A stretch of DNA of 64,000 nucleotides from Bryoerythrophyllum caledonicum (Eukaryota > Streptophyta > Bryopsida > Pottiales > Pottiaceae): the NCBI GenBank assembly GCA_963971425.1, contig OZ020515.1, positions 39,909,198-39,973,197 of the forward strand, in the 5' to 3' direction. Of this stretch, positions 1 to 35,602 are shown in pieces; within the stretch, counting starts at the first letter, position 1, and each line of letters starts with the position of its first letter. Both the position numbers and the translations under genes were made by a program. The notes beneath the pieces were generated by a model. The model was given only the letters and a program-made list of their open reading frames with translations. It made no database searches and was not told the DNA's origin.

Positions 1-32
1 TAATAATTTGTGTTGTCGCTTTCTGTTTTCAG

Positions 33-249
33 TTTGATTGCGTTGGCTGCTTCACCGGATCGGGATTTCTTGCTCCCTTCGTATGCCGCCCACGCTGCAA
101 ACGAGATGGCAAGCGTGTTCTCCCCATCTTCTGCTTCCACTTCCTCTAGTTCGGGTTTTAGATTTAACGACTTCCTAGATCTTGAGGCTTTAGAAGACTC
201 TGACACTTTCCTTTCATCTTCGGATAGTTATTGTAACTCTTCTTCCTAG
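33..249 (+). CDS. Last exon of a third ParB/methyltransferase-like gene (partial, cut by window start)
   Basis: A pyrimidine-rich acceptor (TTCTGTTTTCAG, 21-32) precedes an open frame that ends in TAG at 247-249. The encoded tail contains FLLPSYAAHAANEMA and ends in an acidic serine-rich stretch (DFLDLEALEDSD). This matches the final exon of the unit 2 gene (FLPSYAADAAEVMAE, YLDLEAHESDS) and, more weakly, that of unit 1. Only this exon is in the window, so whether the rest of the copy is intact is unknown. The acidic tail is conserved in position but has no assigned function. Confidence 0.75.
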
Positions 250-800: not shown

Positions 801-1025
801 CACCTTATACTCTAATTCTAAGGCCAGTTTTTGGGCTTCCCACAACAGACAACGTCTGCAGATATAGGATTCCCTCTATATTCTTCTTCTTGAATCAGAT
901 CTAAATATTTATTACCTTTCTCTTCTCGATAGCAGATTCATTCCTATATTATAGAATTTAAGGTCTCCTCCAATTTATTATCAGTAACATTTTAGAAGTA
1001 AATGCACTTCGAAGTTTTTACCCCT

Positions 1026-1092
1026 TACCGCTCACCACTCGCGTCTCACCGCTCACCGCTCATCGCTCACTGCTCGCAAGATAGCATTCCCC
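1026..1092 (+). repeat. Right terminal repeat of unit 0
   Basis: A run of degenerate 9-mers of the form CTCACCGCT is followed by GCTCGCAAGATAGCATTCCCC. Read inward, it matches the left end of unit 1 (GGGGAATGCTATTATGTGAGC) and the two ends of unit 2. It marks the outer edge of the unit. Confidence 0.8.
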
Positions 1093-8339: not shown

Positions 8340-9013
8340 AGGCGGACCCCAGGAGCGCGAGGGCGGACACCATGGAACCCCGAGGGCGGATGATTGGAAA
8401 GGGCAGGGCCCCGACATGGCTTCAAGACGACACGGCTAAGGGAGGACTCGCAGGAAGCAGCAAGGCAGGATCCTTAGAGGGCGGACCTCGTGCGAGGAGC
8501 AGCTGCATAACTGAATCCCGAAGGACGGACCTTGTGCACACAGCCAGCAGATGGTGGAGTCGGAGGAAGAACGGAACCCCGGAGGACGGAATCCTAAAGG
8601 GCGGAATCCCGGAGGGCGGATCCCTGGAGGGCGGACCTCGACGAGGAGCAGCTGCATAACTGAACCCCGAAGGGCGGACCTTGTGCATACAGCCACCAAG
8701 TGGAAGGTGTCGCTACACATCACGACGTGGGATCACCTGAGAAGCACCAGCAGGTGTAGGAGTCTCGAAGGGCGGAACTTGGAGGGCGGAATCCTAAAGG
8801 GCGGAATCCCGGAGGGCGAATCCCTGGAGGGCGGACCTTGACGAGGAGCAGCTGTATAACTAAACCCCGAAGGGCGGACCTCGTGCACGTGCAGCCCATA
8901 CAAACGAGGATCATCGACGCGGAACCCCGGAGGGCAGATCCCTGGAGGGCGGACCTTGACGAGGAGCAACTGCATAACTAAACCCCGAAGGACGGACCTC
9001 GTGCGCGTGCAGC
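8340..9013 (+). repeat. GC-rich GAGGGCGGA repeat block, left part
   Basis: This is a higher-order array of about 170-190 bp built from short units such as GGAGGGCGGAATCCC, with recurring landmarks GACGAGGAGCAGCTGCATAA and CACATCACGACGTGGGATCA. It continues at 23470-24240 after unit 1. One complete copy of the unit 1 target site lies at 8881-8935. The long open frames in several phases are by-products of the repeat. Confidence 0.85.
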
Positions 9014-9058
9014 GGGGAATGCTATTATGTGAGCCTAGAGCGGTGAGCGGTGAGCTGA
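9014..9058 (+). repeat. Left terminal repeat of unit 1
   Basis: GGGGAATGCTATTATGTGAGC is followed by CTAGAGCGGTGAGCGGTGAG. It is the inverted counterpart of 23368-23460 and is shorter because it holds fewer tandem repeats. Confidence 0.85.
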
Positions 9059-9394
9059 ATTTTTTAAGCCTTGACAAAAAAAATTGGTAGGACATGAGAA
9101 GATTTATGTACCATTTTATAAAGAAAAAATAGTGATAGACCTATTACCGTGAGATTAGAGGAGTTCGAAATTGTTAAATTCTCTTGTGATTATATAATTA
9201 TTATTGGAGCATCAACAAAAATTATTTCAATGGATATATTACATTTATCAAATGTATATGGTTTGCTATAAAGAATGTGATGAATAACATGATTATCAAC
9301 AAGACATCACCCAGTTATATAGCCATAAAGCACACAAATCCAATCATAATAAAATCAATACAAAATATCCAAGATTTCTAAAAAATCCAGGAGT
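9059..9394. other. Left subterminal region of unit 1
   Basis: AT-rich non-coding DNA lies between the terminal repeat and the stop codon of the ParB/methyltransferase-like gene. AGACCTATTACCGTGAG at 9137-9153 is the inverse of a motif (CACGGTRATAGGKCY) found near the right ends of units 1 and 2, so it may be a transposase-binding or terminator element. Nothing else is recognised. Confidence 0.45.
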
Positions 9395-12300
9395 TTAAGA
9401 CGATGAAGACTCAGTTGAAGAAACCTCTAACATAAAATCATCACTCGTAAATGACTCTGATGGCTCTCTATCCTCAGCTGCTGAACCATCTATATACTTC
9501 AAAACATTATCATCATACTTCTTGGATTTTGGTTTAGAGCAACCAAACTCCACAAATGCCGTTGCCATCTTCTCCGCATACATTGGCAGATCGTATGACT
9601 TCACCGGGCTTAGAAGAAGACCCTGATTCTTCACCAATGTTGTGGCTAACGTCAATCCTGAACGGCTGCACATTAATATTGTACAATAAGAATATTTAGA
9701 ACAAAAGATAGAAAATGATAATCATACGAAAGAAAATAAAAGGTAAACACTCACTTACTGAATCTAGCCTTCCGACTGAATTTGCGAGGCACGACAACCA
9801 TGGCATCAGGATCTTCAGATGCCACCTCCACGGCTTTGGGTTCAGACGATTTGATGGCAGGAGGGGCCACCTCCATGGGCTTCAGAAGGGCATCAAACAA
9901 ATCGGTGTCCTTCTCTAAAGCCACGATTTGTCGATGAAGACCACGACAGGCGGTAATCGACGCACCTAGATTTGCAGAACAAAACCTTAGATAAATAAAT
10001 ATATAGATAAATTTGAGGATGGAAATTGAAACACACAACCAAATAGTTGATTACGCACCTGTAGCTGCAGTGCAATCTAGTACCAGGTCTCCAGCAACAG
10101 TCGTGCCTTCCAAAAGGAGCTGGAAAAATCGAGGATCCTTCTGACGAGGCCCTCGCCACGGAATATCACCATTCATCGCCAAGTCTCGATCGGTGGTGTA
10201 ATTAATCAACATGTCGTCTCGCCCGATGTCGACACTTGCATTCTTCATTGTGGTTGACCGTTTGAAAGGAAAGCTGGATTTATCTTTCGGGCCAAGGTCT
10301 TTCACAAGGAGGCTGATTCCAAACTTCTGCGTCTGTCAATTTACAAACAACATCAACATCAAGAAGATAAAAGACACTTTCAGTAACGTATCAATTAAAA
10401 ATAAAGAACACTGTAAAAAACTCACGGTGGTAGTAATATCCAATGCCGAAGTCAAGTGAAGACGATTCATGCCCAACCATTCCTTCTTCTTCAGCATCTG
10501 ATATGTCTCACAAAGTCCAATAATATTTCCTTTTGAAATAGCAGAGAACGAATGGAACACTCTTATACAACCATCGTCTTGAAGATGGAGTTCAGCAAAT
10601 GCAAAAGCTGATTGAAGATCTTCATACTCTTTGTCTTCATTCCAAGTTGGTACCATAGTCGCTGGTACAGACACCCCTGGTACAGGCAAATTCTCCTGAC
10701 AGTCAAAAAGAATTAGGTCCACGGCTGGCTTGATATCTGCCACACCATTGATCTTTCGAGACTTATCTCCAGAAAACTGCAGAGAAAAATGACAAGAGTA
10801 AATCAGTTAGTAAATTATGCAAAATGTCCATGGACATTCAATAGTTTACGTTATGCAAGTGATATTAAAAAAAATTACCTTCTTCAGAAATTGGGAAACC
10901 TCAATATCTGTTATCGGTGTCATAGCGTCCATGTTTTCCAACAACTCTGAGATGGAGATATTAAGAATTAATCCTCCAAAGTATTCCATATTCTCTTCAT
11001 CAAGGACAATCACTTGTGTCCCATGAGTAATCACATCTTCGGAGAACTCAGGAAGTGCAGCCGGCCTCATCACACCACTGTAAGAACCACCAAACATCTG
11101 AGAGCCACTGTCCACTGTCGAAGAAGCTGGAATTGGGACTCCCATATCAGCCTTCTTACCTTTGTCCTTCACTCTTTCCTTCTCTGCTACCTTTGCCAAG
11201 CGTTCCAATTCTTTCTTCGCCAAGCGTTCCTCTTCTTTCTTTGCCTTTGAAGTCACAATCTCTTGGAGACGTTCCTCCTTCTTCTTATCAGTGGCGTCCC
11301 TTTTGGCAATGGCTCTCTTCTTTTGTTTCTCAGTAAGGCCGACATACTCGTCAAAATCCATAGTGATAGCACCTAGTCCATCAAAGGATTTCCTCAGCTC
11401 CACCTCTGATGGATGGGTGAAAGTAACATTGCAATCCAAGTACCACCCTCCACCACTAAGGTGGGCTGTCGTAAAGGTGCGGAATTGAATAGGAGAAAAC
11501 ATACACTCCTTGGAACTACGGTCCAACCAAGACGACAAGAAAGGTGGAAAATCTGTATGAGCCATTGCACCTTTTGGTTCCAACTCGTACTTGAAGTACC
11601 TAGAGTAATGGAATCAACAATAAAAAGAGTCAGTATAAGAATTTCACATAAATACTCAAAACAATGCACTTCAACAATAAGCCCATTTTACACAAAGCAA
11701 CTAATTAATGTCCGTGTGGATATGAAAAGCATTAAAATGATTCAAAATTTACAATGAAATGTCAGGAAAATCAAACCTGAAAATTACTCTTTGCACTGCC
11801 TGCCCTGAACCTTCAAAAGTCTTGAAATTGTCAATCTTTTTGAAATGATTCGCTCCTTTAATAACTGCCCAAAAACCGTGATCCCAAATTTTGCGCCTCC
11901 ACCCTTCCACGTAAACATTTAAAGGCTTGGGCTTGAGTGGTACGTTCATATTGATTGGGATTTTGTCCTTCTTCACGACCATATCAAGGAACTCAACAGC
12001 AGCATCTTCGATCTACAAGATTGCAACGGAAATTTTTTAATTAATTATGTATCCAGAAATTTAATATTGTTAAGTATGAAATTTAATTGCTATGAGTAGT
12101 GGTAAACTTACCCCCGGCATACCAAACGCATTTGTTCAAAAATGGACCAAGATGGAGCTCCGAAACAGGCTTGGGCGGAAAATGCCTAGCATCACGAGAT
12201 GGCATGGATGAGTTCCACCACTGAAGAAACTTAATCTTGTGGTACGGAGTAGTGGAACATGTAGCTACCATCTGGAGTTTCTCCAAGGTCATCTCTGGAA

Positions 12301-15300
12301 CTTCGTTAGAGCTCCAATGACTCTCCACCTGATAATAAGTCCAGGAGAGGGAATTATCATATAATTGAATGCATAACATGAAAATGACTGAAAGGGATTG
12401 AAGCGATGTGGAGAACTAACCTCTTCAAGAAATCCACGACCAAGAGCAGGATTAGCAACAGTGAGTAATTTGTGCATCTTCTGATATAATTTCGTGGACT
12501 TCTCTTTAGCTCCTAGTCTCATAGCATCCGCAATACCGTCGTCTGTTTTTTCATCAGTTGGTGTGTTCTCATGGTATTGTCGAAGTGCGGCATCTGATGC
12601 GGCTGCAATTTCTTGCTACAAGAATCAAGCACTGTCTCCATTAATGAAACTTTTGAAATAAAATTCAACAAAAATATAAAACAAAATTGTTAATTGAAAA
12701 TCAACATGTAACATGTCTCACCCTGAAAATAAATGCAGTGAAGACATCAACTGGTAGTAAATACCAAGTTTTGCGAGGCAACTGCACTGAACACCGTCTC
12801 CTCTCTGATGGTCTGAGTACGTCACAAAACTTCTCCAGGGGCATAAGACCATACTTCTGAACCCGGTACAGTGTGTGAACCAAGTTGGTTTTCACGTGGG
12901 AGTCCTCAGTGGACCTGGAGGTGATACCAAAACTGAGGTTAAAAGGATTATAATACTGCAGAATTAAAAGCAAGAAACCAAATGACAAAATGATCTCAAA
13001 ATTCAGTGACTGCCAAAAACTCACTTGTTTATATCATGCATAATTTGCATGACCAATTCAATCCGTCCCCTTGTCTCCAGCACGATGCAGTCAACGGCGA
13101 TGTGCCAGGAGGGATCAGCTGAATGAAGCCTGGAAATGTGGTTCATCCAAGCTAGAAGCCGGTGATTGCCGTCGCAAACAAAAAATTTTGCATTCTTCAG
13201 GAAGTTGAGTTCGGGTATTGAACTTACATGGTTTTCAAATACGTCATTCTCCTTCTTCCATAGTGTTCCAAAATTTAAAATCTCATCCGCCGTGAACTCC
13301 ATGCACAATCCCGCCTCGTTAGTGGTGGAGACATAAAATACTGCAGCCCCATCTCGATATCCATGAACAAATTCTTGTTCAAGTTTCACGATGTCGCACG
13401 AAAGAGTTGGTCTTACCATTGGCATACACCAGTCTGCACAGGGGGATGCGAAGGCGGAATAGATGCTCAGGCTTCATTCTTAATGAGGAGATTGAAGTCA
13501 CGGAATCCACTTTCTGGAGGCGACGCAAGTCATATTCAAACAACTCCTTCTCTTCATTCTCAAGACCTTCATCAACCGGTCCTTCAAGTTCACCATCATC
13601 CGTCTGACCTCCAAATTCGGGTTGGGCAATCTCATCAGTTCCAGGAGTGCCATCATCCTGGTGCCCTTGAGATAGAGTCGTAGGTGACGCATTTTCCTGC
13701 GATTGTCATTACATAATCATAAGTACTAAGATTATCACAATTAATCATGAGTAGAAAATTTTACATTGAACAGACCACGAGGAAAGATTTAATGTCAAGA
13801 CTTCTCAGCGAGTAGTACATTCAATTTCCTTCCAAAAATATAAATCAAATTAATTATCACTCAAACCAGTATGGTCCAAGGAGTAGAAGTAGCATCACAA
13901 ATCACATCTCTCAATCATGGAGGAGATCTTTTTCCCTCACATAAGGACATAGCAAGGAATGAATAGCCCTCACAAATATCACTAGTGCAATTCCGCCGTG
14001 AACTCACTAAATTATACCTCCAAAATATTTCAGTTATAGAGATTGCATGCAATTCTTCAAACGTCATTAAACGTGCACCCTGATCGTAAACATGAAAGAA
14101 TTCAACTTACATTTGCAGCTCCAGGAGCCTCCTGTGAAGACGAATCATCGGAGACCTCAAGAGTTGGAGGAACTTGAGCTCCATGAACTGAATCCTTTTG
14201 AGGGGGCTCAGATCCTGATGAGATACCGTCATTGATGATCGGAAGCATCTTCTACAACAAAGAAATCAAATCATGAAAAATAAGACAATGATAAAATTAT
14301 GCACCACAAATCATAATCACTCCAAAGTTGGGGGAAATGGGTCTAGAACAGGATGTATCTTGGATCTTTGAAACATGCGACGAGGCAGCATATTGTACAT
14401 TTAATCAGGTACCACTGCGACAACTATAATTGAGGTACCAAATCTGAAAGTTCATCAGGCACTTTTGTAGACTGTTCTCGGATCCGAGAAGCATGCGTTG
14501 CAAAATCAAATATCTTGTCAGAGAGGATCATATTCTACAGTTTAGTGGTACTGTTAAAAGGCAAGATCCAAACTTATAGAGCCTGCAGCTCTAGGTTGGA
14601 AATGCTGCTGGCATGCAGTCTAAACTTTAGTACATGATGTGACCGCCCTCCGAAAATTATTAGTAACACTATCCAGTGTGCACCTAATATCGCCTGCTCC
14701 GGCCACTCCAACAACTCAATCAAAAAGTCCAATTACATGAGCATAACGTCACACTGTAATCAACTTGAATAGTGTATCTGTGCATGATAGTTCTGTACAT
14801 GATTGTTCCTGGAACTTGGAACCACTAGGTATATCGATCACCGCAATGCATGTCTCGGATCCAAGTATGCTGGAATCCAGCCCGACCAGAATCCAGCTTG
14901 AATATCGTAAACCAGAATGTAGGAATCCAGTATGCAAGAATCTAGCCCAACCAGAAACCAGGAATCGCTTGAACGAGTATGAAGTGCGGTCCAGAGCACG
15001 ACTTTTTATTAATCGATACTTGATTCTAACGCTGACGGACTTACAGGGTACATGTGCTCGTCCGTTACATTAGCTCGCAAATGCCTTATCGGATCCGAGA
15101 CGACTTGGATATCACCCCTCCGCATCGAAGAACTCAAATCAAGCCACGATAAACATACCAGGTGAATCATTCACACCCGAACCGACTTCGTCCTCCACGG
15201 CCAACACCGGACCACGATAATCATATCTCGGATCCGAGACGACTTCAACGTCACCCCTCCGAACCAATAAGATCATCACAGTCGAAGTTCAATAAACCAC

Positions 15301-18298
15301 CTGGTTGATCATTCACCCCCAGGGTGATCCAATATTTTCTTGCCTCGACCGGAAATTTTCCTTCTGAATCGATAACGAGTATCAAAGACGATGAATATCT
15401 AATGATGATAAGTTCAATGCAGTCAGGATCCATACAGGATCACCTCGTGGGTGTAAGTGCACTGCAGTCTGGATCAAGAGGTCGTGAAAGTGCAGCCTGG
15501 ACTCAAACATGCAGTCCACCACATCATGACACCACTTTATCTGAGTTTCTATGTATGAAAATTCCTTGAACCTGGAACAGTTTGGTAAATCAATTCACCT
15601 TCAACGATTCTCGGTTCCGAGAGAGGCTACATCTGAAGGCTGGAACGTAACTCACTATGGCCGGTATGCAGAATGGCCGAGTATCCAAGAATCCATGTAT
15701 CCAAGTATGCAGGTATCCTGACCGACTATAGAATCTAAGAAACCAGCTATTCAGTTTGACCGAGTATGAAGAGTTAGCTGTTGTAAGACCAAATATCCAG
15801 CTCGATACTACAATCAAATGCTGACGGGCTTACAGGATACATGTGCTCGTTCATTTCATGTGCTCGTCAAGGCCTTATCGGATCCGAGAAGGCAAAAATT
15901 TCATCCCTCTACACTGAATATTTCATAACATGCCAAAATTAACATACCAGGCTAATCATTCACCCAGAAACCGAATTCGTCCCCCAAGGCCATCACCGGA
16001 CCACCACACTACGTGACGGTGGATCTCGGATCCGAGACGACTTTTATCTCACCACTACGAACCAATAATATCATCGTAGTCCCAGGTCATTATACCACAT
16101 GGTGAATCATTCTCCAGCAACGACCAGTAATCAGCCTTCTAAATTGATATTGGGAATCCATCACGATATGTACAATGTAGTCAGCACATATTCTTCTCTT
16201 GAGTGTAAGTGTAGTGCAGTGAAGTGCACCTGGAAAGTGTAGTGCATCATATCATGACTCATCTTTGTCCATCATCGATCACTACTCTTTATCGAGTCTC
16301 GGATCCGAGACGGCATCCCTCACACCGACGAATCTGACACATGTGAATCACTATCTTCTCTTCCGGCTGAGTCTTCCAAACTCAACATCAGCTGGTACTC
16401 AACGAGAAACTTAATCTCGACTCCGAGACGACGTTGATCTCACCCTGACACACTGAAAAATTCTTTATCGGATCCGATAAGTGACTCGCATGAACGGCCT
16501 GAATTCAACATATTCATAATGAACTCTAGACTTGCACTGAACACGTCCTCTTGAGCCTATCACTTAACATTGAAATTATAACGTCTTCTTTGGCCCATTT
16601 AGCGACTCGCATTCCGATCTTGCACTATCTCACAGCAAATCAGAAATTGCTCTCATTTGAGCTATTTGAGTGAAACAATTAGTGCACGTACGTATGAACC
16701 CTTCGGACGAACGTAAGAACCCGAACTCAAAACTGTCGATACTGTGGACACTTCTCCACGTAACTTTTGGTGTTATCGGATCCGAGATGGCACCAGCTCA
16801 CCCCTCCGCACCATCCCGTTCCCGAAAGTTCCCCAAGAATAGCTCCTAACTGGTCACTTACAAGTGGCTGTTTCTTTCAATTAAGTTTGGTCAAACCCTC
16901 TGCGCAGTATGTCCAAAACAGTCTTCGCACGCCGCGAACTTGATGGAAGAGAAGCTCAGCAGGTATTCATAAGCGTGGTTGGCGAGATGCCGTTGATTGA
17001 ATAGGCATACTTGAAGATAAGGCTATCGAATGGGTGAGTTCGTCACTCACAATGATTGTTACAATCCCCATCCGCTCAGAGTTTCTCTTGAAAATTAGGT
17101 GAGTCTCATCATCGACATGATGGCCTCCAATAATAGTGCACCAGCAGCCACTAGTTCCCCAAACAGAAATACTGTCTTCTCGAATCCGAGATAACTATTG
17201 AGACACCGATTGAGATTCCCCATCGATCGACCAGTTCCCCCATATCCCAGCAGACTTTCACAAGTTTTGCACAACGTAGAGACTCTTGCACCAACAACCA
17301 CTTCTTACCGAAAGAGAAGTAACAGTCCTCTCGGATCCGAGAGAAGAATACAGCCACCGATTGAGATTCCACTTCAATCGACAAGTTCCCTCAAACCCAA
17401 GCAGACTCAAACACGTTTCACACAACGCAGAGATAGAATGATGAGTTTGAGCACACCTTAGTCCGTTTGATTGTCCTCCCCATCTTCAAACTCACGTCCT
17501 TGTCGGCTTGGTCGTCCGGCTCCCCCCTCGACCAACTCCGCGTACTCCTCATCGATTCCTCATTCGCCAAAACATTCTGCACAGAATCCCTCATGGTTGA
17601 AACGCTCACTCGCCTTGCCGCAACCCTCAATCCCAACTCTCCCAAACCCTCAGACGCCACCAAAGGCGAAATGGAATCTTCTGTGGGTGACGACTCCTCA
17701 TACTAGGTTTGCAGTTCCATCCATTTGGGTTTTGGAGTCATCCATTCGGGTTTAGGAGTCCTTCCATTCGGGTTTAGACCCGACCTAAAGAACTCTGTAT
17801 CAAATTCCTAACTGAAGCTTTTGACAAAGACGGCTAAAGTTTCCATTATATTAATTTCATAGTGGATCTTATTGACTGGTTCTAATCAATTGAATGCACA
17901 GTCATATTTCTGAAAAATAATTCATACCGTAAATATTAATCCTCTATAAATGTCTCACAACTTTGAAATCTACCTACGACAGTTGATGAATGGACACTTA
18001 CCTCAATGACTTCCGTTCTTTCATTGTGCTTGTCGACTGTGCTCTCTTGCACGTTTGACTGTCCATCATTTAATGCATTGACTGTGGCAACATCTCCGCT
18101 GCTTGTTCCTCCCGCAAACCGCAACGTTTTCCGAACTTCTCCAAGTGATGACCCCCCTATTTTGCATACCACTTTCTTTTGTTTCATTCTGGATCTTCTA
18201 AGGGCTTTTGCAGAGGAGAAATATATCGCCGGGCGATTTTTCCTTCTCTTCCTGTTAGCAACACAAATATGATCTACACTGTCGTTTGCTAGCTGCAT
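9395..18298 (-). CDS. ParB-like / beta-class DNA methyltransferase-like protein of unit 1 (14 exons)
   Basis: Inferred exons: 18298-18002, 17702-17496, 14251-14111, 13696 to about 13435, 13433-13025, 12914-12722, 12615-12421, 12328-12112, 12012-11777, 11599-10879, 10776-10426, 10332-10059, 9965-9755 and 9665-9395. All have GT/AG ends, and most junctions keep frame. Exon 1 has a basic cluster (NRKRRKNRP). Exon 5 has the ParB-like fold: VRPTLSCDIVKLEQEF, then CDGNHRLLAW, matching the GxHR box. Exon 10 has a charged coiled coil (KKEERLQEI). Exon 11 has DLILFDCQENLP at the place of the DPPY motif IV. Exon 12 has IPWRGPRQK (HPTQKP-like) and GDLVLDCTAATG; exon 13 continues GASITAC and QIVALEKD, at the AdoMet motif I. 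IV before I is the beta-class order. DPPY has become DCQE and the glycine motif is altered, so methylation activity is doubtful. The exon 4/5 junction and the exon 8/9 phase (run of five G at 12111-12115) are unresolved. No LTR insertion or internal stop is seen. Confidence 0.8.
14252..17495 (-). other. Intron 2 of the unit 1 gene, carrying the palindrome array
   Basis: This 3.2-kb intron lies between exon 2 (donor GACGTGAGT) and exon 3 (acceptor TTGTTGTAG). I see no coding sequence of note. It also holds scattered copies of AATCCAG/ACCAG words (14860-14970, 15680-15770) and GGACTTACAGG near 15035 and 15822. Its striking content is the TCTCGGATCCGAGA array. Confidence 0.7.
14475..17342. repeat. 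Array of about 13 palindromes TCTCGGATCCGAGA
   Basis: Copies begin at 14476, 14853 (half-degenerate), 15087, 15226, 15609 (CGGTTCCG core), 15876, 16024, 16297, 16415 (CGACTCCG core), 16465 (TTATCGGATCCGATAA), 16774, 17178 (CGAATCCG core) and 17329. The first is a 16-bp perfect palindrome (14475-14490). Spacing is irregular, roughly 50-400 bp, so this is not a simple tandem repeat. All lie within intron 2 of the ParB-like gene. The form (a 14-16 bp palindrome in many copies) resembles bacterial parS sites. That they are binding sites of the encoded protein is inference. Confidence 0.8.
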
Positions 18299-19261
18299 GT
18301 AGTCAAAGATTCATCTCTGCACACATACACTGCTTTCAACAACTAACACCTCACTTCTAAGATATACGTATCACCTCAAACACAATGTACCTCACTCATT
18401 AGTACGCGCTTCCGATGTGCATTCTTATAGCGAGAAAGATCAACCTTATGAAATCATATTAAATATTATTAGTGAACGCAATCACGGATGTTTTATTCAT
18501 TTTTAAAATAAAAAATTAGGTGCCTGACACATTAGGACCCAATAGAATTTTGAATCTCAACAGCTGCTTCCTCTAATATAACTCGATTCTCTGTCCTTTT
18601 TAAGTATAGTAGACCTTGTTGGTCTTTTAAATCATGGTGCAACTCATTATGCACCAAATTAGATGGAGAAGGAGTTGCCACATCAGTTTGAAGACCACCA
18701 AGCTTTATCATACAAATTATACGAATTGACAACTAAGCTATTCTATATCCACTAGCTATTGACAGAATCCCTAAATTTTAACAGAACATATTAATGGAGG
18801 TGTCAAACTGGTAGTGTCAGAATCCATTTTCAATTTTCTGTTACTAGCATTGGGATTCAAGTAAAATTGGTTTAGGGTCATGTACTTGGGTATGTTAAAT
18901 AAATTTTTGGGCAGTGCTTTTCGTAAATGCACATGGAAATTGGCGCTTCAATTATAAATGGTTTGAACCACTACACTATATTAAGTGTAATAAAATTTTC
19001 GCATATCGGCTGTAACTAATTTACTCACTATTTTGTTTTTATTTGAATTTGGTTACAGCCAATTCCCTTTCTATTCTCTACGATGCAGCTCGTGGATAGC
19101 CTTGTCAATTATTTGGTTTGTCTTTTGTACTGCAACCGATATAATTTCTCCTCATTGTACATTTAATGAATCCAACCGTAATTGCTAAATATTAAATGTT
19201 TATGAATAACCATAGCTTGGTTGGTTGTAAATGTTTCGTTAATACTTGTTAGTGAATCACA
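18299..19261. promoter_or_regulatory. Divergent intergenic region of unit 1
   Basis: This stretch of about 960 bp separates the start of the ParB/methyltransferase-like gene (minus) from the first transposase methionine (plus). Both promoters must lie here or in untranslated exons. The sequence is AT-rich. I cannot point to a convincing TATA box or shared operator, and the 18532-18732 minus frame is not conserved in unit 2. Confidence 0.5.
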
Positions 19262-22200
19262 ATGCCCTCTAAAACGTGTATGTCATTGCTCAGTGTTTCA
19301 ACCAAGCTTGCACAATCTGCTTTTCCAATGGCATTCATACATGCTAATGGGCATGGGATACCTGTCTCGTTTCCCATTGCCGACGAAGGATTTTGCATTG
19401 TGACAGCCTTTTGATTGAGTCTTAGATTTCAATTCCTAGAGGAGTCTATGCAGATCGATCAGGAGATATTTGACGATGCCTCTGGTGAGCTCACCCATAC
19501 AGTCAGTCAACTCTCCTATCTGAATGATGGTGTTAAGTTCTGGCGACTACCGCCAGGAAGGTTCAGATTGTATGGTCTGTCTGACTCCCTCATTGCTGCA
19601 TCAACTGAAATTCTTACTTCCAGACAATCAGCTACTTCCACGCTCAACTCACCATGTGTCCAGAGAGTAAAGATAGAGCCAGGGCTTGAACCAATCCATC
19701 TTTTTAGTGATGACTCTGGTGATGACACTCCAACTCCCCTATCTCCTGTGTCGCATACCGTGGTCCAACCTGTCCCATCTCATCTATCTCAGCCCTCTCA
19801 ATCACCATGTCTCTCTAGTGGCAAGCCTCCACTTCCTCACCGTACTTCAGATAGTCTTAGTGTCATTGACTGTCTCAAAAAGTTGTCCGTTAGAAGAGGT
19901 TCGAAGTCTGTAGTTACAAAGATTGATTACAGTAGCATCAAATTAGAGAAAGTGGAATTCCTGCCACCCACTTTTGATGGTGATGTTGTTTTTGAATTGC
20001 CACCTATCGGTGCCTCAGCATCGCACTCCCAAGCGAGGCTCCTTCGTGGAATGGACAAACGACACGACGGACACGCCTGGACGCGAACCATCACGTCCAA
20101 TATCAAGAACGACATGGGGCTCACGTTCAGATCATCATCTTGTTTGGGCCATCTCAAATGTATGAACGTTGACTGCGATTACGTGACCCGAGTTCATCGC
20201 ACCACAACAGCAAATGAAGTTGAGTGGGATGGAGTCAGCACCAACACTTTCGACATTGGATGTGAGCTCCCTAAAGGTTCGAACGTTGTTTGTAAGGTCT
20301 GTAAGGTTCTTCCCTCTTGCCTTGCAACATGCCCAGCTAAAATCTACTATGTTCTTGCTAGAAGTCATATGACTCGAGCTTGTATCCATCTTGGTTCACA
20401 TGCACATCCTGTGAAGATTGGAATCGATAGGGAATTTGTAGAAAAGGCAGAGAGTATTATTGGAGAGCAAGTTCAGAGAACTCCTACCGCCACCAATTCA
20501 GCCATTATCATGGAGGCAAGCAAAGATCTACTTGGAGAGTTATTGCTTCACCCGGAGGATTCACCTCACGCGACTCTCACCTTCAACGAACTTGTTCCAG
20601 TGCTCAACACTTGCAAGCATATGTCTTCACCCAGCATTCGCAACAAGGTCACATCCTTTCGATACTTGCGTCGATTCGGAGTTATGGATAGCATCACTAA
20701 GCTTCGAGGATCTAGCAAGTGGGCATTTGTTCAAGAAAACAAGTTTCCGGGCCAAGGATCAGACTGCAACAAGGTCTTCGTTTTCAAAATGTCCGAAATG
20801 GGTCCCGGGAGTGGTGTAGATCTTGTCAAGCGAATGCAGTCGGAAGGGGATCTTCAGAACGCATGGCTAATGTTCGACCACGTCAAGCGTGTCAAAGGAT
20901 GGACTACCATGGCGTGCCATGTCTATGATTCTCAATACTGTCGAGTCATGACTATTGCCGTTTGTGATATGCAATCAGAGGATGCTACTGCTCAATCATT
21001 ATTTTGGAAGAATCTTAACCTCGTGATGACTAGGCATGGCGTCCCCAATCCAAAATTTAAAGGTTTTATGGCGGACAGTGCTCAAGCAAACTGGAATGCT
21101 ATTCGCCTAATCTATGGAAGTGGAGACGTAGCACAACCGATGGAGAATCAAGAGAGGACATGCCTTTTCCATTGGACCCAATCGTTAGAGAAACACACCA
21201 AAGCAAACATTCGGCCAGATCTCCAAGCACAACATCGCCAAATGTGCAAGCAATACAAGGATGCTAAATCCATCGAAGAGGCGGAGGCTAGATACCATGC
21301 CATCCGATCCTGGTGGTTATCCTCTGGAGCAGCAACAGATCAAGAGGTCGCCAGTCTTGATCTTTGGCTTGCTTTTTGGCATTTCCGCTATCGCCAATGG
21401 GGCGGCTTCATGCAATTGGTATACTCTTATCCTGATTTCTCCTACTTTCAACGTTAATACTGTATTCGTGTAATCTACATGTCTAAATTAGTAGTCCATT
21501 CTTTTGTTCCACTCTTATATTTTGTGTGATGGTTCTTGTTTTTGGACAGCCCCTCGCAGATTCCGAATTGGCTGAAATGCCATCTTGTAATCTTGCGGAG
21601 ACAGTGCATAATAAGTGGTTGCAACAATCTGGAAATCGTGGCAATGACCTTTACGTCGCCACTGTGGATGATCATGTTCGAGCCTTCATGCAAGTTGTGG
21701 CATATTACCAATACTTGAATGGCAATCGATCAGGCACCGGTCCTGGCAAGGAAGAACTCCTCTTACGAGTGGCTCAACGTACAACTCATCGGTCAGGTGA
21801 TCCGAAAGCACTACATGCTGCAATGGCCAAACTACCTGGAGCTTCTGCTTTTTGTACTTGGGAACCACATCTTGAAGGGGAGGAAGTATTTGGTTCTCTG
21901 AAACGGAAGATTGATCTTCCTCCTGGTTGCGATGATGACTCCCATAGACCCGACAAGATCAATTTCTCTCGTCCACGCGTTCAAACTAGGCAAGGATCAT
22001 CAAGGCACCTTGAGGACGCTATTCCAGGAGTTGGTGTACATGTGAAGACAGATGAAGTTCAACATGCCGTACATAAAGAGGTTGAGACAGATGTTGTTCC
22101 ACCTCCAAGGATACATGTGAATGCCGTCCAAGAAACTGCATGTGATGAGACTGAATGGCATATAGCAAGATTATCCAAGGCTTCTGCCAAGGCATGTTTT

Positions 22201-23004
22201 GCCCAACAGGCAATCACAAAGAGAAAGTGTATTGCAAAGATTGTCCAGGATGGGAGGAGTACTGCGGCTCCCACATATACTGGAATGATGCACAATTACC
22301 AGAAGAACCGGGAAGAGCGTATGCAATTCTTCTTCTGCAACGATGATATTGAAAGGTGCGTCAAGGGTACCAGGTGCAAGTGGGTGGTGTCAAAACCAGC
22401 TGTGCCAGAGGTTTGGCCAGTGAAGATGGGTACTAACCTAACTACCTCTGAGATTCTTGCACTACAAACTGCAGGATTTCAACTTCAGCCACGTGCTGCA
22501 ATATCGCCTCGTCGATTATTCGAAGGTCAGGGGATTCCTGTCGATTTGTCCGGATATACTCTTCCGGAATTCCCTGATGATCATCCCTCCCTCAGGTTTG
22601 GAAAAAAAATTCGTAGGAATGCAAAAGCACCTTCAACGAAACAGGCTAATGTTTGTGCATCCGCCATTTTGGTCAGAGGTAGTCTCCGCCGATTGACCAT
22701 GATACCTATTCCAGCTATTGGATGCATTGTTACTTTTGACTCCAGAACTCCTCCAAAAATCGAACAATATTCCATCACTGTTGGACAGTTCCCCACTTGT
22801 TCCTGTCCATTCTTTCAAGAAATGATGAAGAAATCTCTAGGTAAGCGAGATCAGTGGACAAATTGTAAGCACTTGTATTACATCTTCATTGTTATCTGTG
22901 GATTACACTCCGATATTGATGTATTTATACATGCTCCAAGTCTTAGTTTTAACGAGATCAAGCGCATTCTTGAGAGCGGTCTACTTAGCCATCCTATTTC
23001 TTAA
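19262..23004 (+). CDS. MULE-type transposase with SWIM zinc finger, unit 1
   Basis: Two exons: 19262-21418 and 21550-23004, with donor TTG|GTATAC and acceptor TTGGACAG, in phase. The order is an N-terminal region, a Cys-rich zinc region (20140-20400, with CLGHLKCMNVDCDY and CKVCKVLPSC), then a MULE-like catalytic core with FDHVKRV (about 20872), IAVCDMQSED, GFMADSAQANW (about 21066) and CLFHWTQS (about 21163). Conserved FRYRQWGGFM ends exon 1. The C-terminal SWIM finger is CSC (22800-22808) with CKH (22864-22872). It should cut and move the element by binding its ends. In-frame TGA at 19412-19414 follows IADEGFCIVTAF, where unit 2 reads on; translation might start at ATG 19449 instead. The rest is open, so this is the best candidate for the active copy. 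Confidence 0.85.
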
Positions 23005-23367
23005 GGTTTCCTATGCCATTTGGGTAGTTTGTATTCCGGTTTTTAAACATGCAGTAAAGATGTAGTGAGACTAAAAGGGCCACTACAAGGTTTTATCTAT
23101 TCTATTGTGGATTATGTCATAGTGGCAATTTGTACAATTTTTTGTCTTGGATTTTGCTAATATCCCTCTTTATCTTGGATAATTATATATGATATGGTTC
23201 AAGTTTTGTTACTCTAAATCTACTTCGATGAATCCAATATACTAATTATTATGTAAAATTGTCCACGGTGATAGGTCCTATTTTTTACTAAAAATAATAA
23301 AAATAAATTTTTTTAATATTGAAATATTATAAATTAATCCAAAATCCTTAAAATAGTATTTTATTTC
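23005..23367. other. Right subterminal region of unit 1
   Basis: AT-rich non-coding DNA lies after the transposase stop. CACGGTGATAGGTCCT at 23264-23279 is the right-end copy of the subterminal motif shared with 9137-9153 and 48469-48484. No gene is seen. Confidence 0.5.
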
Positions 23368-23460
23368 TGCTCTAGGCTCACTGCTCACCGCTCTAGGCTC
23401 ACTGCTCACCGCTCTAGGCTCACTGCTCACCGCTCTAGGCTCGCAAAATAGCGTCGCTCC
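23368..23460 (-). repeat. Right terminal repeat of unit 1 with three 21-bp copies
   Basis: Three exact or near-exact copies of GCTCTAGGCTCACTGCTCAC plus one base (23369, 23390, 23411) are followed by GCTCTAGGCTCGCAAAATAG and the end at 23460. It is the inverted partner of 9014-9058. Copy-number difference between the two ends indicates expansion within the terminal repeat. Confidence 0.9.
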
Positions 23461-23469
23461 GCGTGCAGC

Positions 23470-28459: not shown

Positions 28460-28468
28460 GCATGGATC

Positions 28469-28525
28469 GAGGGAGTCTTATTCATGAGCGGTGAGCGGAG
28501 AGCGGAGAGCGGTGAGCAGAGAATT
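28469..28525 (+). repeat. Left terminal repeat of unit 2
   Basis: GAGGGAGTCTTATTCATGAG is followed by GCGGTGAGCGGAGAGCGG and a further GCGGTGAGCAGAG. It is the inverse of 48537-48585 and more diverged in its outer 20 bases than the other ends. Confidence 0.85.
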
Positions 28526-28716
28526 CAACCACGGAGAGCAGAAAATATTCGAATATTCCAAGAATATTCGAATATTTAGTGAATATTTGAGGAATATTTT
28601 TTCCATTTTCAGGATTTAGGGTTCCCCGCTAAATTTAGACATGACCAAAATCGGTAATTGGTATCTGTTCTTCAAAAACAGATTAAACATTTTGTACTAA
28701 CTTTAGAACTTCTCAA

Positions 28717-28935
28717 TACCAAAAGGTTACACCGTACCCTCTTCGTACCGATGTTTATACAATTACTTCTACGTTACAAGAGGTTAAACCGTACCCTCTC
28801 GACCCCAAGAAATTACAGTATAACCTCTTGGTACGAAGAGGTTATAGTATAATGGATCGGTGCCAAGAGGTTTTGGTATAACCTCTCGGTACCAAGAGGT
28901 TACGGTTTAGGGTCTCGATACCAAAAGGTAAATCC
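28717..28935. repeat. 29-bp tandem repeat containing CTCTTGGTACCAAGAG-like palindromes
   Basis: The word AGGTTAYRG and its variants start at 28781, 28810, 28839, 28868, 28897 and 28926, an exact 29-bp step, with an earlier copy at 28724. Between them sits a near-palindrome of the CTCTYGGTACCAAGAG form, so the array alternates inverted half-sites. The GGTACC core recalls the intron 2 palindromes of the same unit. Confidence 0.8.
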
Positions 28936-29149
28936 CTAACGGACCAAACGTCCCCTCAGGGTCAAATTGGATTTTGGGCATGTACCTACAATTTGGAAAA
29001 AATCCTTTTGTATTGAAAATTTTATATAAGATAGCCTCCGATAAGAGCTTCGTGGAGATATGGACAATTTTATTTTTTGGATTTGTGGTTTGAAAGTTAG
29101 TACCACTTAAAGCCAAAAGTGGGGACTCCGGGCACCTCCAAATTTTTTG

Positions 29150-29690
29150 ACAAAAGTTTCTATTGACATTGAGATTTTTCACACATAAAGAAAATTTCCT
29201 TCTTTAGAAATTTAAAAAAAAATACTCTTGTCTTTAGTGTGAAAAGGCATTTTATTCCAAGTCAAACATTTTCACACATTGTCGGGCAACAAAGGAAAAA
29301 AAATCATCTTTTCTACATAAAACCTAGAGATCTTCATATTTTTCACTTTTTATTTTTTCAACAACAGTATGTGGTGAAAACCTTCTTATTGACCGTTTGG
29401 ATTATCATTCGAATACATATGTAGTTCACAAAAAAAACGTGGCAATTTTGAACCTCCACTCCTTGCACACTTGTTTTGAATATGCTACACCCTTTTTTTA
29501 CCTCTAAAAATTCGTGGGTTGGGAAATATCATCATGCTTAAGATAATGGTAAAAGATTTAGACCTTGTACAATGCAAACGTTTGATACAAAGTGAAGTCA
29601 AAGTCTGTTGATCTACTCAACGTAGGGAAGAAAATGAACCATTGTTTTGACTTTAAATACTATAATCTATTAATACGTATGATGGATTGC
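29150..29690 (+). repeat. Dispersed non-coding repeat, copy 1
   Basis: It is similar by eye to 49410-49940 and, in part, to 50270-50560. Shared landmarks are TTTTCACACATTGTC, ACATAAAACCTAGAGATC, GGTGAAAACCTTCTTATTG, TTTGAATATGCTACAC, GTCAAAGTCTGTTGATC and ACTATAATCT. It is probably a non-autonomous transposon; ends are not defined. Confidence 0.6.
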
Positions 29691-30077
29691 AACCAAAATT
29701 TTATGGCATGTTTATATAGAAGTCATTTTTAAGATCACTGGTTGAAATCCAAAATTCACTTTAAAATGTGATTTTCATGTCTCTTTTTGGCAGTGGCAAT
29801 TTTGGACTGGTTTTAGAGCGAAAGTGGTCATGGTCCTTTAGGGGTTAATATATAGTTTGTCTTGGTACCAATAGGTAAGAATATAACCACTAAGCACCGA
29901 GGATACATATTGTGAGGTCAAACTGGTAATATTTTTCAACACAACAAATATCTTGATATATATTGGTGCTCTCCGAACAAAGTCATATTTTATTTTTCAA
30001 ACACCTATTCTATTACTAATCCTAGGTTCACACATAGGTTTAGGGTATACACTACTGAAATACGCTAAAGACCCGGA

Positions 30078-33000
30078 CTAGGTCCAAGGATGTGTCAGGA
30101 TGCCGCATTCAAGAATCTGCTTGACCTCCTTCCAACTGAAGGTAGAATAATGGATGAATTCTATAGTTTGATCAATTCCACAGATAGTGAGAAAGATGAA
30201 GTAGAGATGTTTACAGTGGGAGTATTGGCTCTTTCCACGGAACGCCTTCCAAGTCTTTGTGAAAGCTGGGCAGGTGCAATGAGGGAATGCACTCACCGTG
30301 ACCGAGTAGGTTTTAACTTCGGGCGGATCACCATATGAAACGAGAGAAATGTGGCACCCCAAGCCGGGACCTGGGAGCATCCTCACGGCTTTAATGGAAG
30401 CATTTAGGGAATCAACAGACGCCATAGACTTCCTTTGATGTCATTGCGTACTTTGGAGGTGCGCTTTACAGTCTTACCATCTCTCTTTGCAGGGATTCTG
30501 TTGGCGTCCGCTGGCACTGGGATGGAACTCAGGTCTCTTGGGGGCCTGTCGTTAGTAAATAGACATCTTGAAGAAACTTGCTGCTTTTGCGGGAGTTGAA
30601 ATCCAGCCGCTTCCAGATCCTCAATCTCGCCACGGGTCAAATTGGTACCGGCTATGACAGGCCATACGTCCGGGATCGGAGGCCTATCGATGCCCTTCTT
30701 GTATTGAACCACCCACACACGCCTCGTACCCTTCACACACCTTTCGATGTCATCGTTGCAGAAGTAGAAATCCATGGTTTCCAAGACATTCTTCTTTGGG
30801 TGATGGTAAAAACCAGTGTATGTTGGTGCCGGGGTTGCCTTTCCACCTCTCACAATCCTCTCTACACATTTTGTCCTTGTTTTTGTGCGTTGCGCAAAAC
30901 ATTTCTTGGCAGAATTCTTTGACAAGCGGGCGATATGCCACTCTGTCAATTCAGCATGAGTCTCTTCCACCGCTGTGACGCGCCGCAAACTAGGTCTCCG
31001 AGCTAGAGTCGCCGTTGGTGATACATGTGCCGGTCGTACATAATAGACATCATTATTAGGGACGTCGTCGTCGGAATAGACACCGTCGTCATCACCAATG
31101 CCATCGTCTTCGTTGATAATGGGCAGCGGATCTGAAGAAGTTCCGAAGGGTCCTAAAGAATGTCGAGGGCGAGAGAAGTTCACCTTATCCGGTCTATGTG
31201 ACTCGTTATCGGCACCGATTGGCATGTTTGGCTTACGCTTCCGTGAACCAAACACCTCTTCCCCAGCCTTGTTTGTTGTGCGGGTACAAAATTCCTCTGC
31301 CCCGGGCATTTGCAACATGGACTCCTTCAGGACACTGGCGTCGCCTTTCCTTTGAGCTTTTCTCTCGGCCACCCTAAGCTTCAGCTCTTCCTTGCTAGGT
31401 CCGGTCCCACCAACATCGCCTTTTAGGAATTGCTGGTAGTTAACAACTTGCAAGAATACACGGATGTAGTCGTCTACAGTGGCGACGTATAGGTCTGCCC
31501 CTCGGTCTCTAGAGGCCTGCTTCCACTTGTTGTGCACGATCTCCGCTAGGTTGCAAGAAGGCATCTCGGCTAGTTCGTCAATGGAAATGTTCTGCAGAAG
31601 TCCAACGATAAAGTCAGGAATCAAGGACGAATTAAGAAATGGACTATGAGTGCACAATATTGAGAACGTAAGTCAGAGTGCGCGTGCCATACCGAGGTCA
31701 TGAACCCGCCCCATTGACGGTACCTAAAGTGCCACCATGCAATCCAGTTTGACATGGCCTCAAGCCCCTTTTCAGACACAGCTCCAGATATCCTATACCA
31801 TGCCTGAAGCGCGTCGTACAATCGGTCGGCGTCCTCCATAGTTGTTGCTTCCCTGTATTGTTTACAGAGGCTCTTATGCTGCTCTTGAAATTCCTCGGCA
31901 ATCCATTTTTCTGTATACTTGATCATACTCTGCATATAGTGAAATAGACATGTACGCTCCTTGTCCGCCATGACGTTGCCACCCCCGTAGATAGCTCTTA
32001 CCGCATTCCAATTGGCCTGAGCACCGTCCGCCATGAATCCCTTGAAGTCCGGCTACTCTACTCCGTGTCGGCGCATGACATCATTAAGGTTATTCCAGAA
32101 AAGCATCTGAGCATCCTTATCCTCCGACATCAAGTCACAGATAGCGACGGTCATCACCTTGCAGTACGTAGCGTCGTAAACGTGACATCCCATTGTTGTC
32201 CAGTCCGTCACGCGCTTGACATGATCGAACATCATCCACGCATTATCCAGATCATTACCCGGTTGCATCCGCTTCACAAGGTCAACGCCAGATCCCGGCC
32301 CGACCTCTGACATCTTGAAGATGAAGACCTTGGATTCTTCTCCCACAGCATGTTCCGAACCTTGACTTGGAAATTTGCTATTCTGTACAAACGCCCATGT
32401 ACTCACCGAGCGAAGTTTCAGTATGGCATCCATGACACCGTACCTCTTTAGGTATCGGAATGTAACCACCTTGTTTCGGATGCTTGGAGAACCCATGTCT
32501 TTGCATTTGTCTAAGAAGGGAGCTAACTCCTCCATAGTCAAGATCTTCCGGGGGTCGCCTTCTTCGCGGAGCAAGAACTCTCCAAGGAGCTCCTTGCTCG
32601 CCTCCAATATGATGGCACTCTTGGTCGCACGCGGAGTTTTTTCTACCTGCTCACTAATAAGACTACTGATCTTCTCCTTTACATCACGGTAATCACCTAT
32701 TTCAACGGGATGGTGGTATACGCCTAAGTGAATGCATGCACGGGTGCAGTTGCGCTTACCAAAAACGTAGTACACGACAGCATCACACGTGGCAATACAT
32801 GTTGGTGGAACTCCACAGATCTTGCAAAGCAACGTGTTTTTTGGGGCTCTCTGTCCGGCCTGTAAAGTCACTGTAATTGTTCCATCAAACTTTCTCTCGT
32901 TCACGTCCGATATTCGATTAACTCGCTCAAGGTACATGCAGTCGATGTTGTCGCATTGCAGATGACCGACACACTTTGAAGTTCGAAAGTGCAGGCCGTC

Positions 33001-33819
33001 GTCGTTCATGATGTTTGTCGTGATTGTCTTCGTCGAGACGTGTCCATCATACCGCTTGTCCATCCCATACATGTTACGTGCTTGAGTGGATGACGCCGTT
33101 AGTGGGGCGGGCGGCAGTTCGAATATCGCATCATGGTTGAACTCGGCGGGAAGACAGCTCACTTGCTGGTGTGGAATGGCGTCGAAGTTCAGTGTCTTCA
33201 GTGGATTCTTGCCGCCGGCACGGGTGGACAACCTCTTCAGACCTGCAATAACACTGACAATACTAGTAACCATTTGCTCTTTTGGGAGACAAGATTTGGG
33301 TGGTCGATAAGTAGGCGTAATGGGACGACGACGACATGACATAGGGACACTTAGCTTTGGGGGGTTCAAAGGAGGCGCAGTGTCCTCGTCGTCTGAAGAG
33401 AGAATGATGACTGACTCAGTGTCGGGCTCAATCTTGACCTCTACTCGAAGTTGAGGAGGAGTCTACATGCTACACGTTGTGGATTGACGAGGGATAAGAT
33501 CAATCGAAGACGAACTAATCTGTGAATCTATGCGACCATATACTCTATACCGACCCTTGCCAAGTTTCCATTCCTTCTCAAATATATCCTTCACTACAGG
33601 CGGACTTGGTATGGTGTAGAGCAAAGACAAACAATCATCGTCATAGACCTCCTCCTCGACACAAATACTTTCTTGAACAAAACAAAATCGAATACTTAAC
33701 ATAGCACTGGTAACAGTAGCAAAACCCTCCTCGTTCAAAGGATAGGCAATAGGACAGCCAGTTCCAACGGCACGTAGTATGGCCATGGAAGACAATGCAG
33801 AGGGAACAGAAGAAGCCAT
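30078..33819 (-). pseudogene. MULE-type transposase with SWIM zinc finger, unit 2 (broken)
   Basis: This is the paralogue of 19262-23004 with the same two-exon layout (intron 31692-31592; donor TCG|GTATGG, acceptor CTTCTGCAG). It starts MASSVPSALSSM at 33819. The Cys-rich region (CVGHLQCDNIDC, CKICGVPPTC), the core (FDHVKRVTDWTTM, GFMADGAQANWNAV, CLFHYMQS, FRYRQWGGFM) and the SWIM finger (CTCPAFTK then CKHLYFIF) are all present. Defects: TAG at 33463-33465 and TAG at 32053-32055 (after MRRHGVE), and a frame change near 30404-30430. It extends through the position where unit 1 has TGA (reads AMLSIRF there). Unit 2 probably cannot supply full-length transposase. Confidence 0.88.
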
Positions 33820-35081
33820 GGAGATATCAAGATTGGGTTGGAAGAGTGATGGAATATGGAGAGGGACATGGATTATGAAGAACAGTCAGTGGGTATAAAA
33901 AGGGGTATCATCGAAAGACGGCGTCTGTCAGTGTTTAAAGCAAATGCACAATAATACAGTTTGGAATGTATCCGAGATTATATGAAGCAGTAATAGCTCA
34001 GCACGACGTGGAATCCAATCGGTTGTCTTCTTGCAATATTTGGGAACCACCTGTCTAAAGATAATATCAGGCTTGTAAAGGATTGACATACTGGAGATTC
34101 TAGATCGACAAAAGCTTGAGTAGAGCCTGGTATATCTAGATGCCACGGAATTGGAGTGTCCGTGTCAGAGTCAACACTAAAAATGTGAATTGTCTCAGAA
34201 CCTAGATTAAAATAACATCCATAAAATAATTGAACTCATAATATATTGATCTTGAAGTAGGAGGATAAATTAAGTGAGGTATTTTAAGTATAAAACATTA
34301 GAATAAAGCGTACATTAGAATATACATTAATGCACATGGTTTTACATTAGGGAGTTGAGGTTATTTCCGTTGGCTCGCAATATAAAATAAACATGTTGAT
34401 CAGGGAATGTACACAATAGAATTAGCGCATCTAATAGTGGTTTTACAGGTCATAAAGGTAATATTTAGTAATAAATTGCAAGTGACGGCGGAAGACAGTT
34501 ATAGAGCTTATTTAAAATCATGCCTAGATGTATGCTCTTTTAAATATAACAATTAGGGTGATATAAATAAAGGAATTTAGGATGAATCATTGGAGTTCCT
34601 TACATACTATTGTATAGCATCTTCAAAATACGTTCAGCCCACTTTGATAAGTGGAATGGGTGGGTAGAATTTGCATTTCTCTAACGACCGGGAAGAATAG
34701 GGAGATATAATATGTTGTACAAGGTGAAGATTAGCATGCAGAATCAATGCTTTAAACAATTAATTTTTCAATTAGGTAGGTGAGGTTTGAATATTAGACT
34801 CGCACAATGAGAACCCATGCGCGTGTCATTGAATAGAAATCATTTAAATTATTGAAAGGAAAACACGTGTTATAAGCAAAGACGACGGAGAGCAGATAAA
34901 TAGTTATCTTGAATCTGCCAGCGTTTATCCTAATTAATATGGCAACTGTAATTGTTTAAATAAAGAGAAATTGTTTTTGTAATTTTTAGGGTGTATTTGA
35001 TATCATCTACAACACAAGATAAACTCTAGAAGACTTTGACATTGTTGGCACAGCGTAGTAGATAGAACTGACATATCCCTA
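33820..35081. promoter_or_regulatory. Divergent intergenic region of unit 2
   Basis: This stretch of 1.26 kb lies between the transposase start (minus) and exon 1 of the ParB/methyltransferase-like gene (plus), in the same arrangement as 18299-19261. GGTATAAAAAGG sits at about 33894. I could not align the two intergenic regions by eye, so shared control sites are unproven. Confidence 0.5.
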
Positions 35082-35602
35082 ATGACTAGGAAAACTATTG
35101 AAGCTGCGGTAGTTCCAACAATCGTGAGGAAGCAGAAGCGGAGGAAGAGAGGCCTTCTGTTTTCAAGTAGTAAGCAACTGAAGAGGTCTGAGATGGGAAG
35201 GAGAAAGGCACATATTTCCGAAGTTGACGTTTCCGATACTGCAAAAGTGTTGTCATATGCTTCGACAGAGCGTGATTGTGATGACGAACTACTCCCCATT
35301 TTTGAGAATGACGAAGTTCATGTTGTAAGTCTACACAGAGACTGGTGTCTAAATAGGATAATTATGTCTTGCTTAAATACTTCTCGTGATCGCATGTACA
35401 TGAATTGTTGATTGCCTCGTGTTGACCTAGTTCGTGGATTCAAATTCTCGTGTGTGTGGTTGGCTAAGGTCTTAGGACGGAGCCACGAAGATGACATGGG
35501 GGACTCTATCTCAGAAGAACCTACGATGAAATTTAGTGCAGAAGCTTTGGCAAAAGCAACTCCTATTGCGACGTCGGTGACTCCAAACGTAGAAGTAAGT
35601 TT

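Follow-up and report, generated by a model that had tools for sequence, protein, structure and literature searches.

A window of 64,000 nt from contig OZ020515.1 of Bryoerythrophyllum caledonicum, to whose positions all coordinates below refer, contains a gene that joins a ParB-like to a methyltransferase-like domain, and this gene is the second gene of a DNA transposon bounded by terminal inverted repeats (TIRs) and target-site duplications (TSDs), a setting that the first-pass annotation of the same DNA had missed. Two deeply diverged elements (U1 and U2) each hold the ParB-methyltransferase gene and a transposase-like gene between TIRs and 9-bp TSDs, and part of a third copy (U3) is also present; the co-occurrence of the two genes is known from this window alone. 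Judging from the sequence, we give about an even chance to the reading that the encoded protein is an accessory DNA-binding regulator of a two-gene Mutator-like transposon, acting in self-targeted anti-silencing or autoregulation. A host single-copy gene was considered and rejected in view of the TIRs, the TSDs, and the third copy.

The inverted repeats were found by self-comparison of the window. Transposon U1 (14,447 bp; 9014..23460) carries the ParB-methyltransferase gene on the minus strand and, divergent from it, the transposase-like gene on the plus strand. Its inverted repeats (9021-9055 and 23418-23452) agree at 91% over 35 nt, and plus-strand TSDs of GCGTGCAGC flank it at 9005..9013 and 23461..23469. 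The left TIR (9014..9055, plus strand) consists of GGGGAATGCTAT followed by an array of GAGCGGT-type heptamers, and the array in the right TIR (23366..23460, minus strand) is longer. A diverged tandem repeat block (8468-9013 and 23493-24146) is cut in two by U1 and is the source of an empty site: the flanks joined through a single TSD copy differ from a neighbouring copy of the repeat by 5 mismatches in 120 nt, without gaps. Transposon U2 (20,117 bp; 28469..48585) contains both genes in the same divergent arrangement, inverted repeats (28485-28523 and 48531-48569) that agree at 95% over 39 nt, and plus-strand TSDs of GCATGGATC at 28460..28468 and 48586..48594. The TIRs of both complete elements are flanked by 9-bp TSDs, within the range of 8-11 bp given for Mutator-like elements (MULEs; PMC6446971). 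The third copy ends at 1092 and its left part falls outside the window, which holds the C-terminal exon of its ParB-methyltransferase gene (7..249, plus strand; LPSYAAHAANEMA...FLDLEALEDSD, matched by eye to the C-terminus of U2) and its right TIR (1024..1092, minus strand; GGGGAATGCTATCTTGCGAGC plus a heptamer array). Heptamer arrays are present at all five visible element ends.

The first-pass annotation described an intron-rich eukaryotic gene with a paralogue carrying the same set of domains, and both descriptions hold. The peptides that it quoted lie on the minus strand inside 9395-18298, where GT-AG exons can be joined from an ATG at 18298 to a stop at 9395, and the window also contains a fragment of eukaryotic large-subunit (LSU) rRNA. 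The encoded protein, of ~1,200 residues, combines a ParB-CTPase fold towards the N-terminus with a beta-class amino-methyltransferase-like fold towards the C-terminus. In U1 (all minus strand), exon 1 (18002..18298) provides the start codon and a basic stretch, RKRRKNR, and resembles exon 1 of U2 (E 2e-4); it is followed by intron 1 as modelled from its splice sites (14252..18001) and by exon 2 (14111..14251), which is without a visible homologue. Next come the ParB-domain exon (13025..13696), the exon following that domain (12722..12914), linker exons at 12421..12615, 12112..12328, and 11777..12005 (the last with an uncertain start and a frame unlike that of U2), a long linker exon with a charged region (10879..11599), three methyltransferase-like exons (10426..10776, with the motif IV position, DCQEN; 10059..10332, with HPTQKP-like GPRQK and motif I, LDCTAATG; and 9755..9965, with GAS...QIVALEKD), and the last exon, with the stop codon (9395..9665). 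A 175-nt intron (13608-13434) placed inside the ParB exon by the first model was rejected, as 90 of the 121 rows of the ParB alignment read through in one frame. Because these relatives keep one frame there, U1 is assigned a frameshift near 13426, which parts IPLCRLV from MPMVRP.

The U2 paralogue (about 35082-47884, plus strand) has homologous exons in the order of U1: exon 1 (35082..35324), a ParB-domain exon in two parts (40191..40313, 3' end approximate; 41659..41950, with WDGNHR, 5' end approximate), and further exons within 42026..47884 (42026-42221, 42309-42506, 42608-42760, 45309-45376, 45455-45696, 45803-46505, 46594-46941, 47027-47267, 47369-47570, and 47662-47884), the ends of 42608-42760 and 45309-45376 being uncertain. 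Introns or insertions divide two exons in U2 that are undivided in U1. The LSU rRNA fragment (39433-39754; Rfam RF02543, 97.8 bits), perhaps captured DNA, lies in U2 downstream of exon 1 and upstream of the ParB exon, and a ~189-bp tandem repeat at 43737-44407, between the exons at 42760 and 45309, is possibly a nested insertion.

The U1 and U2 protein models are 33% identical, with per-exon identities of 30-47% (10 exon pairs, 755 codons). The exon-start frame is common to both at 8 of the 9 introns compared, indicating that most of these introns are older than the U1/U2 split. Differences at codon positions 1, 2, and 3 amount to 0.50, 0.40, and 0.63 (755 codons; pairs aligned on protein score), a pattern expected under protein-level constraint. 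These comparisons bear on the explanation that the gene is a Pack-MULE-like passenger, a host gene captured passively and without function for the element. MULEs capture host sequence (PMC6446971), and U2 also contains the rRNA fragment upstream of its ParB exon; yet the ten compared exons keep the same arrangement in such distant proteins, divergence is highest at third codon positions, and the ParB exon has 373 relatives (known as sequences apart from their genomic context), all of which makes passive capture highly improbable.

The ParB-like domain that had been proposed from the peptide CDGNHRLLAW is borne out. It belongs to the ParB-CTPase fold and contains the P motif GxxR (Box II, as defined in PMC12704722), with DGNHR in 116 of the 121 alignment rows. 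The U1 ParB exon alone, used as a query, found the 373 relatives among 453 candidates; the whole U1 protein model scored none of 6,356 candidates, we suppose because the relatives in the collection are single exons. A chance resemblance to ParB was considered and rejected. Pfam and NCBIfam matches to the 121 rows are weak and point to different families (DUF1015 in 18 rows, best 0.002; HTH_metalloreg in 25, 0.015; DGQHR in 3; DndB-type in 1-2). Sequence searches of PDB with ParB alignments gave 12 and 2 hits, none of them a ParB, and the top match in the viral Foldseek comparison is a DndB-like giant-virus protein (E 0.23), the ParB-like phage proteins standing at E 2 or more. Neither the canonical ParB helix-turn-helix (PF17762) nor the C-terminal dimerisation domain gave a Pfam hit in the whole U1 and U2 models, a search that distant versions would escape.

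For the methyltransferase-like domain, the region cut out of U2 matches phrog_6952 (2.4e-6) and PF01555 (3.4e-5, under the curated cut-off), and that of U1 matches phrog_18293 (2e-5), NCBIfam CcrM (1.1e-4), and PF01555 (0.043). The whole U2 model matches PF01555 at 2.6e-4, and the best solved-structure sequence match to a profile of U1 and U2 is CcrM (PDB 6pbd; E 0.0019, collinear over profile 45-221). Motif I and the HPTQKP-like part lie within these profile hits; motif IV was placed instead by multiple alignment with four phage enzymes, in which VDLILFDCQEN (U1) and IDLIIVDIPEN (U2) fall on phage VDLIVTDPPY. Motif IV precedes the HPTQKP-like segment and motif I, which is the permuted beta-class order. 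The beta-class N4/N6 methyltransferase of the first-pass annotation therefore stands as to fold and motif order, but not as an active methylase: in the two readable copies the catalytic motif [DNS]PP[YFW] is replaced by DCQE (U1) and DIPE (U2), with the motif-IV aspartate kept and glutamate in place of the aromatic tyrosine, and both have A[AS]TG at the FxGxG-type segment of motif I. CcrM has DPPY as its motif IV; U1 and U2 differ from it in lacking PPY and in their changed motif I.

Because replacement of SPPY by APPA is reported to have abolished N4CMT activity (PMC8885841) and the motif-IV aromatic is glutamate here, catalysis is predicted to be lost or changed, a prediction drawn from two copies, which are few. 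The same evidence, together with the altered motif I, argues against an active amino-methyltransferase that would place N4-methylcytosine (4mC) or N6-methyladenine (6mA) on DNA of the element itself, thereby blocking host silencing or marking the element. Such activity is decidedly improbable, even with the permuted motif order, the hits to S-adenosylmethionine (SAM) motifs, the retained aspartate, a phage enzyme that has DIPY where U2 has DIPE, and reports of active methylases in eukaryotes that are carried by transposons or were captured (e.g., retrotransposon DNMTs, PMC5890265; rotifer N4CMT, PMC8885841). Least probable of the explanations considered, and suggested by analogy, is a nucleoside triphosphate (NTP)-regulated nickase, in which the ParB fold would cut element or host DNA as directed by the methyltransferase-like part; nonspecific nicking is reported for a ParB-adenine methylase fusion of Bacillus cereus (PMC5512222), but strand breaks would come from the transposase.

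The transposase-like gene of U1 has two plus-strand exons (19448..21418 and 21550..23004, the second with a SWIM-like CxC...CxH), and that of U2 lies at 30078..33885 on the minus strand; the two share 35-54% identity in five aligned pieces of 65-467 residues each. The U1 protein has 58 relatives, 27 of which, most with exon 1 only, form with U1 an alignment of 28 rows, and PDB searches gave nothing useful. Conserved Asp residues, a CxxH, and a SWIM-like finger are present, which we take to be a MULE-type pattern, and the label 'Mutator-like' rests on these motifs together with the TSD length given above. A near full-length relative (45-48% identity) occurs on a 4.1-kb contig filed under a cyanobacterial metagenome-assembled genome (CADCWO010000080.1; L001 1-4101), probably a eukaryotic contamination.

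Candidate sites for the protein emerge from a palindrome scan of the whole window (all 4-base half-sites, gaps 0-8), for which 25 simulated windows served as control. TCGG-N2-CCGA ranks first with 24 sites, followed by a poly-T runner-up with 16; in the simulated windows no half-site exceeds 13 sites and TCGG-N2-CCGA never exceeds 2, and shuffles gave 0.46. All sites except one at 31209, in the U2 transposase region, fall in modelled intron 1 of the ParB-methyltransferase gene (23/24; 10 in U1 and 13 in U2), this first intron being the stretch from exon 1 to the next modelled exon, where U1 exon 2 and the U2 post-intron exon are placed by splice sites only. The U1 array (14476..17342) comprises 13 copies of TCTCGGATCCGAGA with 0-2 mismatches, with 10 exact occurrences of TCGGNNCCGA. 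In the stretch of U2 that separates exon 1 from the next exon that can be recognised (35626..39241), TTTCGGTACCGAAA occurs nine times in an 84-bp tandem repeat, TGCTTCGGCGCCGAAGCA three times, and TTCGGCACCGAA once. The centres are AT (9) and TT (1) in U1, and TA (9), CG (3), and CA (1) in U2. Taken per element, the palindrome ranks first in U1 and ties for first in U2, where the half-site with which it ties (TTCG, gap 4) lies inside these very palindromes. Within a duplicated U1 block, palindrome sites match at 20/20 positions versus 215/285 elsewhere, and within a second block at 9/10 versus 105/136. Near the left end of U2 (28727-28902 and 29860-29900) there are imperfect inverted repeats of the AACCTCTTGGTACCAAGAGGTT type, which are related to TCGG-NN-CCGA though not the same motif.

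The intron palindromes of U1 and U2 are likened to the targets of VANC, which likewise form tandem repeats in introns, as well as in upstream regions (PMC5735166). Their position also bears on a mudrB-like accessory role in transposition, in which a ParB-fold NTP-dependent clamp or bridge would pair the ends or aid insertion, with the palindromes incidental or acting as enhancers. A second open reading frame (ORF) is frequent in MULEs (e.g., mudrB, apparently required for integration; PMC6446971), and the heptamer arrays at the five visible ends are potential multimeric sites, but the most repeated palindrome sits in an intron and not at the ends, and this role is a possible though rather doubtful alternative.

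From the observed composition, mobility structure, folds, and repeated sites, we infer for the proposed accessory regulator a course of site recognition, NTP-dependent loading, and outcome. The protein would recognise element-specific repeats (i.e., the intron 1 palindromes of its own gene and perhaps the heptamers at the element ends), would use NTP binding by the ParB fold for loading or spreading, and may retain its SAM-site domain, with the catalytic tyrosine lost, as a non-catalytic or altered module. By analogy with VANC on Arabidopsis VANDAL elements, the likely outcome would be self-targeted relief of silencing or autoregulation, which we rank first, with an accessory role in transposition second. 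A parS/ParB-like form of self-marking, in which an element-encoded ParB-CTPase clamp with a SAM-binding pseudo-methyltransferase would load at the intron arrays, spread, and exclude host silencing, is on balance unlikely.

Several observations weigh against the proposed accessory regulator. Palindromes were examined in two elements only and could be bound by host factors; 9 of the 13 U2 sites belong to one 84-bp tandem array, and with that array collapsed U2 has 4 or 5 sites, in a four-way or two-way tie for first. ParB recognises parS through its helix-turn-helix domain and not through the CTPase fold, and Pfam found no helix-turn-helix in the whole U1 and U2 models. Of the families whose folds were anticipated for the spliced protein, PF02195 is not among the 25 listed of the 28 families that match the 121 ParB rows, PF01555 stays under its gathering score of 26.7 bits (24.3 in U2, 14.2 in U1) and is not hit by the whole U1 protein, and three Foldseek runs gave no match that reached E 0.001. 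The Pfam MULE model is likewise not among the 12 families matching any of the 28 transposase rows. Both complete elements also carry lesions, namely, in U1, the frameshift in the ParB exon and a TGA at 19412 (in frame but ahead of the start chosen for the transposase, in a stretch open in relatives), and in U2, a transposase broken by two in-frame TAG codons (33465-33463 and 32055-32053) and, near 30440, by a change of frame.

Accessory genes in MULEs, ParB-methyltransferase fusions in phages, and DNA-modification genes borne by transposons have all been reported separately; no description of a ParB-methyltransferase gene in a eukaryotic transposon was found in the open-access literature searched. 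VANDAL/Hiun Mutator-like elements with VANC (Arabidopsis; PMC5735166, PMC10398659) are described as similar in combining a MULE-type element with an extra ORF and short motifs in noncoding tandem repeats, including introns of the accessory gene. VANC proteins have DUF1985/DUF287 regions (not detected by Pfam in the U1 or U2 model at E values up to 10), whereas the U1/U2 protein has ParB-CTPase and methyltransferase-like folds and TCGG-NN-CCGA sites. Fusions of ParB-CTPase with PF01555 in phages and prophages (PMC12704722) and the Bacillus cereus ParB-methylase (PMC5512222) likewise combine these two folds in a single protein encoded by mobile DNA, but the U1/U2 gene is eukaryotic, intron-rich, and part of a DNA transposon, with long linker exons and an altered motif IV. 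It also has no close phage match: viral contigs scanned with alignments of the transposase, ParB, and methyltransferase yielded 229, 144, and 125 pattern matches, respectively, none of which was confirmed as a relative, and tblastn of the U2 model against phages matched 68 records weakly (best E 4e-4), with 19 of the 20 listed falling in the methyltransferase part and one (H6) outside it. The first-pass annotation proposed an ancient acquisition from a prokaryote or phage, and descent from a phage fusion is a conjecture. In the survey of PMC12704722, sulfiredoxin is named the most common eukaryotic representative of the ParB-CTPase fold. Retrotransposons of dinoflagellates and charophytes with C5 cytosine methyltransferases (PMC5890265) are also transposons that acquired a gene of DNA-methyltransferase type, but these are retroelements with a C5 enzyme, in contrast to a DNA transposon with an amino-methyltransferase fold and probable loss of catalysis. 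Fungal DNA transposons with TET/JBP dioxygenases share an accessory gene whose product belongs to a family of DNA-modifying enzymes and differ in enzyme fold and, as described there, in transposase families (PMC12730594).

Here the pairing of a ParB fold with a methyltransferase-like fold that phages also show is located within a eukaryotic DNA transposon that has candidate cis sites. Should the protein protect or regulate its element, counter-defence parts of phage type would have been reused by a eukaryotic transposon in its conflict with genome silencing, and the protein would be a palindrome-specific, NTP-switched targeting protein, directly testable as such. The surrounding region is repeat-dense and eukaryotic, with ORFs at 1293-3334, 53084-53632, and 56557-60935 that we take to be pieces of Ty3/gypsy gag-pol, and an ORF at 50852-51613 (minus strand) that presumably resembles a protein kinase.
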